A stretch of DNA of 44,552 nt from an uncultured Fidelibacterota bacterium. GTDB taxonomy: Bacteria; Fidelibacterota; Marinisomatia; Marinisomatales; Marinisomataceae. Both the position numbers and the translations under genes were made by a program. Positions 35,912-44,552 of this stretch are shown here, one piece after another (the stretch's first letter is position 1; the number at the start of each line of letters is the position of its first letter). Location: the NCBI GenBank assembly GCA_902624575.1, contig CACNXV010000001.1:1-44552 (forward strand), in the 5' to 3' direction. The notes below the pieces were generated by a model. That model was not told the DNA's origin, ran no database searches, and saw only the letters and a program-made list of their open reading frames with translations.

Positions 35912-36394
35912 CTATTTGGTATTGTAAGCAATAGCTTCGTCTTCATTAACTTCACTGAGTTGTGGTTCAGTGTGATTAACTTCAACTTCTTCTAATACTA
36001 TGTCGCGTTGGATGATTTCAAATGTTTCATCCACATAGTTGGTTGTATATAAATTTCCATTCCATTCAAAATTTTGACCTGGTCCGAGTGCATTTCTAGC
36101 AGCAAGGAAAGCTTCATTAAAAGAGGGAACAGGGGTAGTTTCAATTTGAACAACATTATCGCTTAATGTTGCCACTGCGTCTGTAGTCATGGCTTCATCA
36201 TTGACTGAATTACCCATATTTGCGTTATTAACTAATGAGGTAATTTCTACATCCACAGTGGCTTCATTGCGTAAGCTTTCTGAGGTAGTTGTATCGGCTA
36301 GTTCAACTTCTTCGGATTTATCCATTAGAAAAAACAGTGAACCGATGCATAAAATTACAGCTGCTAATACGAATTTTTCAACATTATTATACAT
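35912..36394 (-). CDS. Hypothetical membrane-anchored protein carrying the GPGxxFxWNxxxYTTNYxxET motif
   Basis: N-terminal TM; SFNEAFLAARNALGPGQNFEWNGNLYTTNYVDETFEII shared with the 39567-39956 protein. Confidence 0.7.
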   Translation of the reverse strand: MYNNVEKFVLAAVILCIGSLFFLMDKSEEVELADTTTSESLRNEATVDVEITSLVNNANMGNSVNDEAMTTDAVATLSDNVVQIETTPVPSFNEAFLAARNALGPGQNFEWNGNLYTTNYVDETFEIIQRDIVLEEVEVNHTEPQLSEVNEDEAIAYNTK

Positions 36395-39566: not shown

Positions 39567-39956
39567 TTATTTCTTAGCTACTTCGTTTAAGAACGAATAA
39601 TCAATTTCAAATAAATCACTATCTTTAAAAGATCTAACAGCGATCATATCTGTAAAACGTTCATCAGTTTTATATGTATTACTTTCTTTATCAATTTTCA
39701 CAACCTCATCAGCAATAACAATAATTGTCTCATAATAATAGTTTGTTGTATAATATTTATTATTCCATTTAAATATTTGACCAGGTCCTTTTTTCTTTCT
39801 TGCTTGTCTAAAAGCTTCTGAAAAAGATTGTAATCCTTCAGCTCTATATTCATTTACATAATAGGTTCTTTGTATCATTCCATCTTCATCGATTTGTTGA
39901 TTGTCTTTTATATCATTAGAAGTGAAAGCAAGAAAGATAAATAGATTTGTTAGCAT
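39567..39956 (-). CDS. Hypothetical secreted protein carrying the GPGxxFxWNxxxYTTNYxxET motif
   Basis: Track ORF starts at 40007 but the internal ATG (39956) is preceded by AAAAAGGAG and begins a signal-like segment MLTNLFIFLAFTSND; SFSEAFRQARKKKGPGQIFKWNNKYYTTNYYYETIIVI. Confidence 0.7.
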   Translation of the reverse strand: MLTNLFIFLAFTSNDIKDNQQIDEDGMIQRTYYVNEYRAEGLQSFSEAFRQARKKKGPGQIFKWNNKYYTTNYYYETIIVIADEVVKIDKESNTYKTDERFTDMIAVRSFKDSDLFEIDYSFLNEVAKK

Positions 39957-40074
39957 AAATGCTCCTTTTTGAGTTATCCTCAAAATTCTTTCTCTATTTC
40001 TTAACATATATTAAAAAAAATAGTTCCAAAATTTCGAAATTTCTTGATTTTTTTCTAGGCGCATCTAACGAAGA

Positions 40075-40671
40075 TTAGTTTTTCGGAATAAATCCATAGT
40101 TCATTTCGCTAAAATTAGAGGCCTCATTTTTACATTTTTGTCTTAAACCTTTTTTTCCATGTACTTTATCTCTAAGTGGATTGTGTTCTATTGAATCATT
40201 TAATGTTGGTTTAAGATGTTTAACTAAATATTTTTCTAATTCTATAGCATCTTTTGTTTCTATGTAAAAATATTCAAGATTTTCTTTCATCCAATTTGTT
40301 AAAATTGTTTCTTTTGTATAGTCATCTTCTGGCAAAATAAAGTTAAAATTAGCAATATGATTAGGTATATTTTCTTGTTTATCAAATCTCGGGTATGCTT
40401 TAAGACTAAATTTTTTTTTAAATATTGCACCCAAAGATCTTCTTAAGGTAGAACCAGAAGAAGAGGTTTGTTTTGATGAGGTTTCAATGTGACTTCCAAA
40501 CCTACCAAAAATCGACTTTGTTTTAATAGCTCTTCCAATATAAACGATTCTAAAATAGTCAGGATTTTCAAATCCATCTAAAGCGGCTTTTTCATTTAAT
40601 CTAAATAAGTAAACACCATTTTCTCTTGGTAGTTCATCTCTATCAATTTCAGATACTTTCTTAAATAACAT
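40075..40671 (-). CDS. GIY-YIG-like nuclease-superfamily protein
   Basis: ENGVYLFRLNEKAALDGFENPDYFRIVYIGRAIKTKSIFGRFGSHI...STLRRSLGAI...IELEKYLVKHLKPTLND: GVY/YIG, R and E elements of GIY-YIG fold. Confidence 0.6.
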   Translation of the reverse strand: MLFKKVSEIDRDELPRENGVYLFRLNEKAALDGFENPDYFRIVYIGRAIKTKSIFGRFGSHIETSSKQTSSSGSTLRRSLGAIFKKKFSLKAYPRFDKQENIPNHIANFNFILPEDDYTKETILTNWMKENLEYFYIETKDAIELEKYLVKHLKPTLNDSIEHNPLRDKVHGKKGLRQKCKNEASNFSEMNYGFIPKN

Positions 40672-40892
40672 AGAATCTAATTTATGTTCTCTTATATATA
40701 TTCGTCAATGTGAATATAACTTATTGTCGATAAAAAATGTATTGAATTGCCTTTTTAAAGAAATATGGGAACCTAAATAACAAAATTATGTATATATGAT
40801 AGATTTAAACGAAATTATTATATTTCACTTCCATTTTTTTATTCCTTTATTTCGTTTAAACGCCTTAATTTCAGCATATAAACCTTTATATG

Positions 40893-40921
40893 TTGACATT
40901 TAAGGTTATATTATTTATATT
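40893..40921 (+). promoter_or_regulatory. Predicted sigma70-type promoter for the 40953 operon
   Basis: TTGACA (40893-40898), 17-nt spacer, TATATT (40916-40921), upstream of ATG 40953; flanking AACCTT/AAGGTT arms (40881-40886 / 40902-40907). Confidence 0.6.
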
Positions 40922-40952
40922 TACGTATTATTAATTTAATTTAAGAGGGCAA

Positions 40953-41423
40953 ATGAAAGAAAAAATCATTAAAGAAATAGAATTTTTGATGGCTGATATT
41001 TTAATAGATAATATCCCAACCAGAAGAAGTTTAGATAGCGATCATACATTAAAACAAACAAAGTTTTGGAGGGGTGCTGATTTAACAGTCACAGATAACA
41101 TAGATGATGTGATTGCGCCTCATTCATTTTATGGTCAAGATGTTATTATTGTAACAAATTTAGCATATCAATTATCATGGGTCTTGTGTGAGCTGCGCGA
41201 TATTTATTCAAGAAATGATTTTTTCGATTATGATTTAAAATATCATATTTATGGAAAATTTGCTGATAGATTTAATATCTATCAAAAACAATCTTCCAAT
41301 GATAAAGATGTTATTTTAAAGTCCTTACAAGACTTAATCTATTCTAATGAATTTAAAATGTTACCGAATGATAGCACCGATTTAAATAGTTTAACCATAG
41401 ATCATATTCAAGGAGAAGCATAA
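40953..41423 (+). CDS. Hypothetical protein (156 aa), first gene of putative defence-like operon
   Basis: Good promoter upstream; stop overlaps start of next gene; no recognised domain. Confidence 0.65.
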   Translation: MKEKIIKEIEFLMADILIDNIPTRRSLDSDHTLKQTKFWRGADLTVTDNIDDVIAPHSFYGQDVIIVTNLAYQLSWVLCELRDIYSRNDFFDYDLKYHIYGKFADRFNIYQKQSSNDKDVILKSLQDLIYSNEFKMLPNDSTDLNSLTIDHIQGEA

Positions 41424-41653
41424 TGGGTATTAAAGAAAGAGAAGAAAAGTTTGTAATGTTAGCTGAAAAGAGAGTAAAAAGCGCATTAAATGCACTTAGA
41501 CTTGTTAAAAACTTGGCTAATAAATCAAACTATTCATATGAAGAAAGAGATGGTAATAAGATTTACCGAACACTCTTAAGAGAAGTTCAGAGTGTAAGAG
41601 AAGCATTTAGAAATAATGGTAAAGATTCTAGCAATGATTTCAAGTTGCGATAA
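41423..41653 (+). CDS. Small helical hypothetical protein (76 aa)
   Basis: KEREEKFVMLAEKRVKSALNALRLVKNLANKSNYSYEERDGNKIYRTLLREVQSVREAF; start overlaps previous stop (TAATG). Confidence 0.65.
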   Translation: MGIKEREEKFVMLAEKRVKSALNALRLVKNLANKSNYSYEERDGNKIYRTLLREVQSVREAFRNNGKDSSNDFKLR

Positions 41654-41762
41654 TAAGATTTTATTTATGTTCGAGTATCATATCAATCCCATGTTTTCAT
41701 TTTACTCCTTTTTGTTTTTTGTGTTGTTAAAAGGGGTTGGTATGATGCCTCCTTTCGTCGAT

Positions 41763-41792
41763 TATAGTGGAGATTGGTCGTTCTCCACTATA
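41763..41792 (+). promoter_or_regulatory. Strong hairpin in leader of HATPase gene
   Basis: TATAGTGGAG-attggtcgtt-CTCCACTATA (10-bp perfect stem, extendable to 13 bp with one bulge); no T-tract, so not a typical terminator. Confidence 0.55.
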
Positions 41793-41825
41793 TCGTTAAT
41801 ATTAACACATAATTATGGAGTGTAA

Positions 41826-43781
41826 ATGAGTGGTAAAAACAATTGGATGTGTGATAAGATTTCATCAAAACCAGGCTGGAATCATCCAGGTTTAGATAAA
41901 TTTATTCCTGATTCAGGGGTTAGAATAACTAGTGTAGTAAGAGAATCAATTCAAAATAGTATTGATGCTAAACCAAAAGGCTCTAAAAATCCATGCATTG
42001 TTGAGTTTGAATATCTAAAAAATTCCGATATAAGCATAATACCTAATTTTGAGGAATATGATAACTATTGCAGAGATTCAATAAAGTATAATATGGAACG
42101 TAATAAAGACAACCTTGCAATGATAGATGATATGAAAGCAACTTTAAAATATTTAGACGAATGTAAAAAAACAAAAAAAATAGACGTTATCAGAATTGGC
42201 GATTATAATACTGTTGGCTTAGAGCACGTTAATAAGAATGATGAAAGATTTGATACAATTCTATCTGCTGAAGGTTCATCTGTTTATCAAGGTGAATCAG
42301 GAGGTGGAACATTTGGATTTGGTAAATATGCATCCTTCACAATATCTCAATTACGAACTGTAATATATTCAACTTTTAATGAACAAGAAGAATATGGATT
42401 TGCAGCTAAGGCTATAATGGGATCATTTCCAATAAATGGTGGAAATAAACATTTTTCTAATATTAATAAGTTTGTGACAGAAAAAAACAAGGCTATAGAC
42501 GATATTAATGAAATTGAGAAATACGTTTCTTTAAGGAGTGAGAAGGGAACTGATATATACATAATTGCACCAAGAAAAGATCTTTCTTTCAATAGTAAGA
42601 ATTTTATACAAACAATTGCTAAAGAAGTATCAGAAAATTATTTTTTATCAATTTATGACAAAGAATTAGTTTGTAGGATTATAAATGGATCTTACAAAAA
42701 GGTTATAGATCACAATAATATTGAAGAATTGTTAATTGATAATTATAGAAAATTTTCTAAAAAAGCAGACAATAAAAGCTATCATAGTGATTTAGCAAAA
42801 GTAATTCAAGGAAATAAGCCATGCTCAATGTTTTATTTAGATGCTTATATAAATGGCGTTTCTAAAGAAGTAAATTGTGAACAATTTAAAAAAGTAAGCC
42901 TTTACGTTTCAGTTGATCCAAAAGATCATAATGATCAAATAATTGATGCACAACATGCTATGTGGATGAGAAAGCTTAAAATGAAAGTTAAACTTGATTC
43001 GACAATTAGAAGAAAAGATAAACCTTATGTTGCCTTGATTCTTGTAACGGATAAAAATGGGAATAAATTTATGGCTTCAATTGAAAATGGACCTCACAAT
43101 GATCTAATTCCATCAAGATTGCAAGGTGAAAATGAAACAAAAGCTAGATCTTCAATGCAAAAAGTGCACAAGGAATTAGATAAGTTTTTAGAAGAACTTA
43201 GAGATGAAAGTGGGGAATCCAGTTTAATAAGCGAAACTGATTTTTGGACGACTTCTTTTCCTGGAGAATCTCCTTCTGGAAGCAAGAATCCACTTAAAAT
43301 AAAATATAGAAAAAAATCTTCAAAGAAATTTGAAGAAAAGAAACAAAAAAAGAAGAATCCTTTTCATGTTCTCAAAAGAGATATTAATGGTATAATTACA
43401 GAACCTGGACCGGATCCTAAACCAGGAGAAGGACCTAATCCAAAACCAGCTCATAAGTATAGTTTAACAAGAGGTAAAATTGATGAAATGCGAATTCTAC
43501 ATCAAACAGATAATAAATATAAAGTCATCTCTATTTTTAACGAAGATTTAGATGAGGCAAGGTTTGTTTGTTATGCAAGTAGTGACAATAACGAGAAGGA
43601 AAGAAGAGTTAAGGTAGAAAAAGCTTTTTCTGAAAGTATCGATTATAAAGTTACAACAAATACATTTGTTGCTAAAAATATCACAAAAGGTAAAAATACT
43701 TTTGTAATTGAGATTGATCAAAATGTAAAAATTGCACCTCAATTATGGATGTTAGAAAGTGATGAGGAAGAAAATGAGTAG
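41826..43781 (+). CDS. GHKL/Bergerat-fold (MutL/Hsp90/MORC-like) ATPase, putative defence protein
   Basis: N-box VRESIQNSIDA; degenerate G1 RIGDYNTVGL; G2 GESGGGTFGFGKYASF; C-terminal Pro-rich linker PGPDPKPGEGPNPKPAHK followed by a likely beta domain. Confidence 0.75.
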   Translation: MSGKNNWMCDKISSKPGWNHPGLDKFIPDSGVRITSVVRESIQNSIDAKPKGSKNPCIVEFEYLKNSDISIIPNFEEYDNYCRDSIKYNMERNKDNLAMIDDMKATLKYLDECKKTKKIDVIRIGDYNTVGLEHVNKNDERFDTILSAEGSSVYQGESGGGTFGFGKYASFTISQLRTVIYSTFNEQEEYGFAAKAIMGSFPINGGNKHFSNINKFVTEKNKAIDDINEIEKYVSLRSEKGTDIYIIAPRKDLSFNSKNFIQTIAKEVSENYFLSIYDKELVCRIINGSYKKVIDHNNIEELLIDNYRKFSKKADNKSYHSDLAKVIQGNKPCSMFYLDAYINGVSKEVNCEQFKKVSLYVSVDPKDHNDQIIDAQHAMWMRKLKMKVKLDSTIRRKDKPYVALILVTDKNGNKFMASIENGPHNDLIPSRLQGENETKARSSMQKVHKELDKFLEELRDESGESSLISETDFWTTSFPGESPSGSKNPLKIKYRKKSSKKFEEKKQKKKNPFHVLKRDINGIITEPGPDPKPGEGPNPKPAHKYSLTRGKIDEMRILHQTDNKYKVISIFNEDLDEARFVCYASSDNNEKERRVKVEKAFSESIDYKVTTNTFVAKNITKGKNTFVIEIDQNVKIAPQLWMLESDEEENE

Positions 43782-44552
43782 AATTACATACTTTCCACAC
43801 CCGGTTCTAGCAACATTTTTAAATAATGACTACAACAGTGATTGTCAATTCGAGATAATTCATGGTGAAAGACATGAAAATGAAGAAAGACAAATTGTTA
43901 TTGATAATGTATTTTATGAATTAAAAAGTAAATCTTTGAAAAAACTTTTAGACGATAAATTAGCACAAGTTGTTTGTGAAGTTAGGTGTGCGGCAACTTT
44001 ATTTTCAGACACTTTTATTATTAATGATGCGCCTAAAGATATAATTTTAAAACAAAACGAATTGAGGGGAACAATTGAATTTGATCTCAAAATATTATTA
44101 TCAGAAAATCTTAAAAATTTTATGTTTGAAGATGATACAAATGAAACTTTTTATAAAAATGAATCATTTGATTTGCAAAAAAATGATATTTTAGCAATAT
44201 CTAATACGAAAAAATTTACATTTGAACCTAGAAATCTTCCAGACGCAGAAATTCAAGCAAAAGAAATTTTTCATTGTGTACCATCAAGCGAAATTGATGA
44301 AATAACATATGATATAGAAAAAAGAGGAGTATTTATATATTTACCAGATAAAACTAATAATAATATTTATCTTGAATGGCAAAATCTATCATCAAAGCCT
44401 AATTTGAGAAATTTATTATTTAATTTTCCTTTAGTTCAAAGAGTTCTTTTGAGAGTTTTAAATGAAGAAATTAATTATTCCTGGACTAAAGCTATTAAGA
44501 AGGATATAGATAAACATGATTTGCAAAAAGATAATCATAAAGCAATTTTTAA
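43774..44552 (+). CDS. Hypothetical protein, partial (continues past window end)
   Basis: ATG 43774 overlaps HATPase stop by 8 nt; open to window end: MSRITYFPHPVLATFLNNDYNSDCQFEIIHGERHENEERQIVIDNVFYELKSKSLKKLLDDKLAQVVCEVRCAATLFSDTFII...; not in supplied track. Confidence 0.7.
   Translation, partial: MSRITYFPHPVLATFLNNDYNSDCQFEIIHGERHENEERQIVIDNVFYELKSKSLKKLLDDKLAQVVCEVRCAATLFSDTFIINDAPKDIILKQNELRGTIEFDLKILLSENLKNFMFEDDTNETFYKNESFDLQKNDILAISNTKKFTFEPRNLPDAEIQAKEIFHCVPSSEIDEITYDIEKRGVFIYLPDKTNNNIYLEWQNLSSKPNLRNLLFNFPLVQRVLLRVLNEEINYSWTKAIKKDIDKHDLQKDNHKAIF

Follow-up and report, generated by a model that had tools for sequence, protein, structure and literature searches.

Genes at the locus and in its chromosomal slot

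The window, that is, the whole stretch of 44,552 bases analysed here, is the beginning of a 144,462-bp contig in a 72%-complete draft genome of 667 kb. An ORF check confirmed all four genes that a sequence-only reading of this DNA had placed near the window end: a 156-aa protein of no recognised family (40953–41423, + strand); S, a 76-aa helical protein that its family profile marks as the conserved first gene of the module (41423–41653, +); A, a 651-aa GHKL ATPase (41826–43781, +); and B (+), which starts at 43774, occupies 43774–44552 of the window and ends at 44628. The 156-aa and 76-aa ORFs overlap by 1 nt (TAATG), 172 nt lie between S and A, and A overlaps B by 8 nt. The fourth gene, described in that reading as truncated, is cut by the end of the window, but the contig itself runs on: C (284 aa, 44628–45482) overlaps B by 1 nt, a C5 DNA methyltransferase (Dcm, 45643–46740; PF00145, 3e-58) starts 161 nt after C, and an HNH protein (46727–47404; HNH_2, 1.9e-12, with a PADLOC match to an HNH/type II enzyme) overlaps Dcm. 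A gene for a 223-aa protein comes next, then leuS, so that the rest of B, C, the methyltransferase and the nuclease precede the downstream housekeeping genes.

Sequence searches identified A with PADLOC PDC-M33A (PDLC04582, residues 14–631 matched, E 2.9e-53) and B with PDC-M33B (PDLC04583, E 1.2e-25). C of the window genome gave a partial, weak match to PDC-M33C/DUF6339 (E 9.8e-5, positions 58–116 of 250), and the third gene of its relatives matches PDC-M33C, which is DUF6339, strongly. The operon had been proposed as a candidate undescribed one with no clear match to a known system; with A, B and C matching PADLOC-DB PDC-M33A, B and C, it is, by these profile matches, one copy of the catalogued PADLOC candidate PDC-M33, plus S. 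PDC (phage defence candidate) systems are unpublished or unvalidated PADLOC candidates (PMC11811056, PMC12988326), and no mention of "PDC-M33" or "DUF6339" was found in the literature searched.

The 156-aa gene, counted earlier as a component of the operon, lies outside the conserved system. Its product has no significant match in Pfam, PADLOC or NCBIfam and no relative in other M33 loci or on plasmids, and among 170 genomes it gave a single marginal match (E 7e-4, with stops); we rejected it as a core member. Ahead of the operon is the promoter-like site TTGACA-17-TATATT (40893–40921, +), a consensus match alone; it ranks first in the region (11/12 matches), but such sites barely exceed chance in this AT-rich DNA (32 observed vs. 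26 ± 5 expected). Further upstream, at 40804–40860, there is a perfect 12-bp inverted repeat with a 33-nt spacer. A putative RNA hairpin in the gap between S and A (41759–41795, +; fold of 41740–41825, z = –2.85) could be an attenuator or processing site.

The operon sits in a slot between an epimerase gene and leuS. Four sister genomes have other restriction–modification (R-M) genes there, whereas the slot of a fifth (G014) is empty save for the 223-aa gene common to all. The occupants are two N6_N4 methylases in G009 (epimerase 99.7% identical), Dcm and GIY-YIG in G008, two D12 methylases in G011, and HsdR/S/M in G012. Both flanks of the slot are common to the sister genomes, which argues against misassembly. 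The earlier proposal of an accessory locus centred on a GHKL ATPase was right, and the locus is inserted among housekeeping genes. The 198-aa GIY-YIG nuclease-family protein upstream of the operon (40075–40671, –; PF20815, E 4.7e-15) is 29% identical to the GIY_YIG_2 relative beside Dcm in the G008 slot and is, on this sequence evidence, cargo of the same hotspot. Two small proteins encoded at 35912–36394 (–) and 39567–40007 (–) have a similar stretch, NEAFLAARNALGPGQNFEWNGNLYTTNY and SEAFRQARKKKGPGQIFKWNNKYYTTNY, respectively, and are probably paralogues; the latter lies at the hotspot edge and is retained in 4/5 sister genomes examined.

The conserved module and its proteins

We assembled 54 loci with A (47 from a profile search of genome records, plus plasmid loci). 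B is present in 52/54 and C in 47/54, counts that do not represent independent events, as many of the loci are from related Bacilli MAGs. About 47 loci share the order A-B-C, with medians of 14–17 nt for the gene overlaps, and this recurrence of overlapping genes places the gene set far above chance. S lies upstream of A in 37/54 loci, either directly, with a spacing usually below 60 nt, or with a ~840-aa protein in between. The ~840-aa family occurs in 22 loci (e.g., L010, 7477–9978), mostly between S and A, and carries a Sigma70_r4 HTH (Sigma-70 region 4) in the examples scanned. The module is also found in Actinomycetota, Deinococcota, a Planctomycetales MAG, a Nanoarchaeota MAG and Neomarinimicrobiota, and plasmids of Ligilactobacillus, Priestia, Planococcus, Arthrobacter and Paenarthrobacter carry complete A-B-C with adjoining R-M genes. 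A Deinococcus locus, in which the ATPase is annotated short, is similar to those plasmid loci.

Neither A nor B has a credible Pfam match, and sequence-profile searches with A, B and S against solved structures gave no credible relative. The AlphaFold2 model of A (m3b32dd83f3f0, mean pLDDT 73.6) comprises Bergerat and S5/transducer domains up to residue ~460, a disordered linker (463–551) and a C-terminal beta-sandwich (~552–644). Its best Foldseek matches are topoisomerase VI-B (6.6e-9), SMCHD1 (1.4e-6) and MORC2 (4.6e-5), with GyrB, PMS2 and MutL also found; the predicted fold is thus topoisomerase VI-B/MORC/MutL-like, and these structural matches support the assignment of A as a Bergerat/GHL protein. 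The N-box RESIQNSIDA and the G2 motif GGTFGFGK, pointed out in the sequence-only reading, are both present. The G1 motif GDYNTVGL, which had been called degenerate, is typical of the family: 45 homologues all have D126, T129 and G131, and relatives have DSGTVG (L057) or DYGTNG (L060) at this motif. Its interpretation as a loss-of-function motif was rejected. Also invariant in the 45 homologues are E40, G161/G164/G166/K167 and GTD241–243 and, in the S5 part, R382/E420/H424. From the conserved columns and the Foldseek matches, A has the N, G1, G2 and GT motifs and the S5/transducer domain of a GHKL + S5 (GHL) ATPase. E420 and H424 form an ExxxH motif in the C-terminal part of S5, close to where the folded part of the model gives way to the linker. 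A is unlikely to be a MutL/DNA-repair housekeeping gene, being present in 2/199 relatives (its own genome included) and in a slot that is swapped.

B has a beta-rich N-terminus and a helical C-terminus. A B relative was modelled with AlphaFold2 (mfc5313fbec3b, pLDDT 90); Foldseek of B gave mostly immunoglobulin/FnIII-like matches with a TM to the query of ≤0.28, too low to name a fold. C of the window genome was one of the seeds for the C family, which was found in 44 loci; against solved structures, its sequence profile found nothing beyond designed proteins (C3HR3) and weak matches to enzyme segments. Judged from conservation, which is a separate matter from activity, few polar residues of B and C are conserved, and no pattern among them resembles that of a nuclease.

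S has no significant match in PADLOC, Pfam or NCBIfam, and its family shares the invariant residues F10, R17, N33 and Y37. By sequence, S is a new component, a conserved fourth member of the module that is absent from the PADLOC models; a search with those models would miss it, and the module may depend on it to work. Outside M33, S is likewise found ahead of no fewer than three further GHKL-like ATPases. It lies ahead of 615–621-aa GHKL-like proteins in Agrobacterium, Dinoroseobacter and R. leguminosarum, of which the first two match HATPase_c_3 at 0.001–0.003 (below the Pfam cut-off) and the third is 59% identical to the Agrobacterium protein; two of these HATPase_c_3-like proteins of Rhizobiales and Dinoroseobacter are followed by a gene for an ATP-binding protein. 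GHKL-like proteins in Ensifer (800 aa) and a Bacillales genome (784 aa), both recognised by motif reading alone, likewise have S ahead of them. Among 263 genomes of the order of Sporosarcina genome G199, S was found in 11: six with M33 in the locus (including G199, itself found through M33), one with the 784-aa protein, and four with tandem S, of which the three examined have no M33 gene. Such loci (L126, L127 and L128) encode ~160-aa proteins of two S domains without an M33 gene, and L127 and L128 each have a divergent single S gene beside the tandem-S protein.

Restriction–modification neighbours and candidate roles

R-M genes lie within 5 kb of the module in 35/54 loci. We counted 64 in 386 kb near the module (≤5 kb) and 0 in 214 kb at 5–10 kb, a near/far count that is partly biased because most seeds of the R-M models were near genes. 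On iteration, D12 methylases came under the label of one restriction-enzyme model (RE_6997), so that the totals hold and the split by type fails. Of the near genes, 54/64 are co-directional with the module, and neighbours are often within 600 nt upstream. A less biased PADLOC scan of random ORFs points the same way: among the best 25 of 252 families, 100 near ORFs gave 9 C5-type and 8–9 D12-type methylase matches, and among the best 25 of 175 families (2–3 members each), 100 far ORFs gave no methylase model. Across ten such genomes, C5 methylases average ~0.7 per Mb (about 17 in 24 Mb), as against their presence at about 13/54 M33 loci. The nuclease beside the module is of the HNH type in the window genome and of AlwI, MutH/Sau3AI or other types elsewhere, and Vsr adjoins Dcm in four loci. 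No R-M gene was detected within 5 kb in 19/54 loci, some of which are short contigs and two of which (L049 and L052) contain a DPPY methylase seen by eye, but several long Anaeroplasmataceae loci and L008 among them have none. The defence context proposed earlier was correct as to an accessory locus but incomplete, the context here being specifically R-M, with Dcm and HNH adjoining.

We give about an even chance to the locus being an R-M cassette that carries PDC-M33 (S-A-B-C), in which a MutL/MORC-like ATPase without a recognisable nuclease of its own is an accessory coupled to R-M. In this scheme, the C5 methyltransferase would mark host DNA, and A, as a dimerising ATPase of the MutL/MORC/topoisomerase VI-B type, would close on DNA upon ATP binding, with B and C, which have no conserved nuclease-like residue pattern, as adaptors and S as a small protein that partners or regulates the ATPase. 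The ATPase could clamp or loop unmethylated invading DNA and thereby license or boost attack by the endonuclease of the cassette; alternatively, it could block such DNA directly. Coupling to R-M is supported by the GHL fold and invariant ATPase residues of A, the density of R-M genes within 5 kb, the plasmid loci that pair A-B-C with R-M, and slot swapping, and is weakened by the 19/54 loci without a detected R-M gene. Because the same module stands beside unrelated R-M types, coupling by direct contact could only be of a generic kind. It is rather unlikely, though far from negligible, that PDC-M33 is instead an autonomous anti-phage system (acting, e.g., by abortive infection or replication block) that travels with R-M in defence islands. 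The module is complete without nearby R-M in L019, L027, L037, L042 and L057, Gabija and AbiD are found farther out, Shedu adjoins the module in L060, and a DarTG-like pair (macro domain) was recognised by eye downstream of M33 in L057 (3929–6060, genome G107), all as such a system would have it; however, it would leave unexplained why R-M genes are packed within 5 kb with none detected at 5–10 kb, mostly co-directional and often ≤600 nt upstream, and B and C lack a conserved catalytic pattern for an effector. The Vsr genes adjoining Dcm and the presence of MutL and PMS2 among the structural matches of A would suit a module that shields the host from its own R-M or repairs R-M-linked damage in a MutL-like manner (e.g., together with Vsr where 5mC has been deaminated) instead of acting against phage. 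However, Vsr is missing from most loci, and many have adenine methylases, for which deamination of 5mC is of no consequence, making this role improbable.

The role of S is a separate matter. A small transcriptional regulator of the cassette, as opposed to a physical partner of the ATPase, would be compatible with any of these explanations, and by analogy we rate it at somewhat below an even chance. RptR, a 79-aa repressor of type I R-M islands with a deposited structure (9R2Z; PMC12255303), offers the parallel: S is likewise small (75–80 aa) and helical and is the first gene of the module, and in Bacillales orphan tandem-S proteins are divergent from single S genes. The S profile has no relative among solved structures, although the RptR structure is reported as deposited, and in most plasmid and several Bacillales loci S is immediately followed by a GHKL-like ATPase, the family of which varies, which is less expected of a regulator. 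More tentatively still, S might be a shared small partner or controller of several unrelated GHKL defence ATPases (M33A, the 615–621-aa Rhizobiales/Dinoroseobacter proteins, the 784-aa Bacillales protein and the 800-aa Ensifer protein), which would define an undescribed S-GHKL class on R-M and other defence operons.

Comparison with known systems

The closest catalogued relative is PDC-M33 itself, with M33A matched over the full protein, M33B adjoining A, and M33C (DUF6339) adjoining B with a match that is weak and partial here and strong in relatives; the PADLOC matches take in A, B and C, and S and the R-M partner fall outside them. The Mza system (MutL-like ATPase, Z1, AIPR) resembles the locus in having a GHKL ATPase in a conflict locus. 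A check for Z1, AIPR and methylase partners, as the sequence-only reading had advised, found the C5 methyltransferase downstream and no PADLOC or Pfam match to Z1, AIPR or the Mza-type ATPase, the cassette genes past the window being C, Dcm and HNH; identity with Mza was thus rejected. The sole further resemblance is that of the HTH stretch of the ~840-aa partner, in other M33 loci, to MzaA.

For VcSduA, a Shedu protein with a GHKL domain, control of a defence nuclease by the GHKL ATPase has likewise been proposed, but there the nuclease is fused (PMC12137116), whereas none is seen in A, B or C. CapK and CapS resemble M33 in that a GHKL protein is encoded in immune loci; the former is a kinase of HTH-STAS-GHKL layout and the latter a repressor of STAS-wHTH layout (PMC13373217), and neither architecture is seen at the M33 locus.

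MORC/paraMORC ATPases were placed in an R-M setting by Iyer et al. 2008 (PMC2292703), and DNA looping between recognition and cut sites was predicted there for such ATPases. As far as the accessible portion of that source describes it, paraMORC2 shares with A the GHKL + S5 architecture and an ExxxH motif (E420/H424 in A), a likeness drawn from the published description, and shares with the M33 loci a sporadic spread, many Gram-positive members, and methylase, Vsr and nuclease neighbours. Helicase partners, common for paraMORC2 in the same portion, are not a fixed part of M33 loci, and DUF6339 and S are not mentioned in it.

A role of MORC-like ATPases in bacterial R-M has thus been predicted since 2008, and no experimental answer for the family was found in the literature searched. 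In the locus and its relatives there is now a delimited unit of four genes that recurs and has an R-M partner, an empty site to compare it with, and specific residues (E40, E420/H424), with which the question can be put to the test in laboratory strains. In kind, this is an ordinary defence-island finding, PDC-M33 in an R-M slot, to which S and a testable mechanism are the additions.
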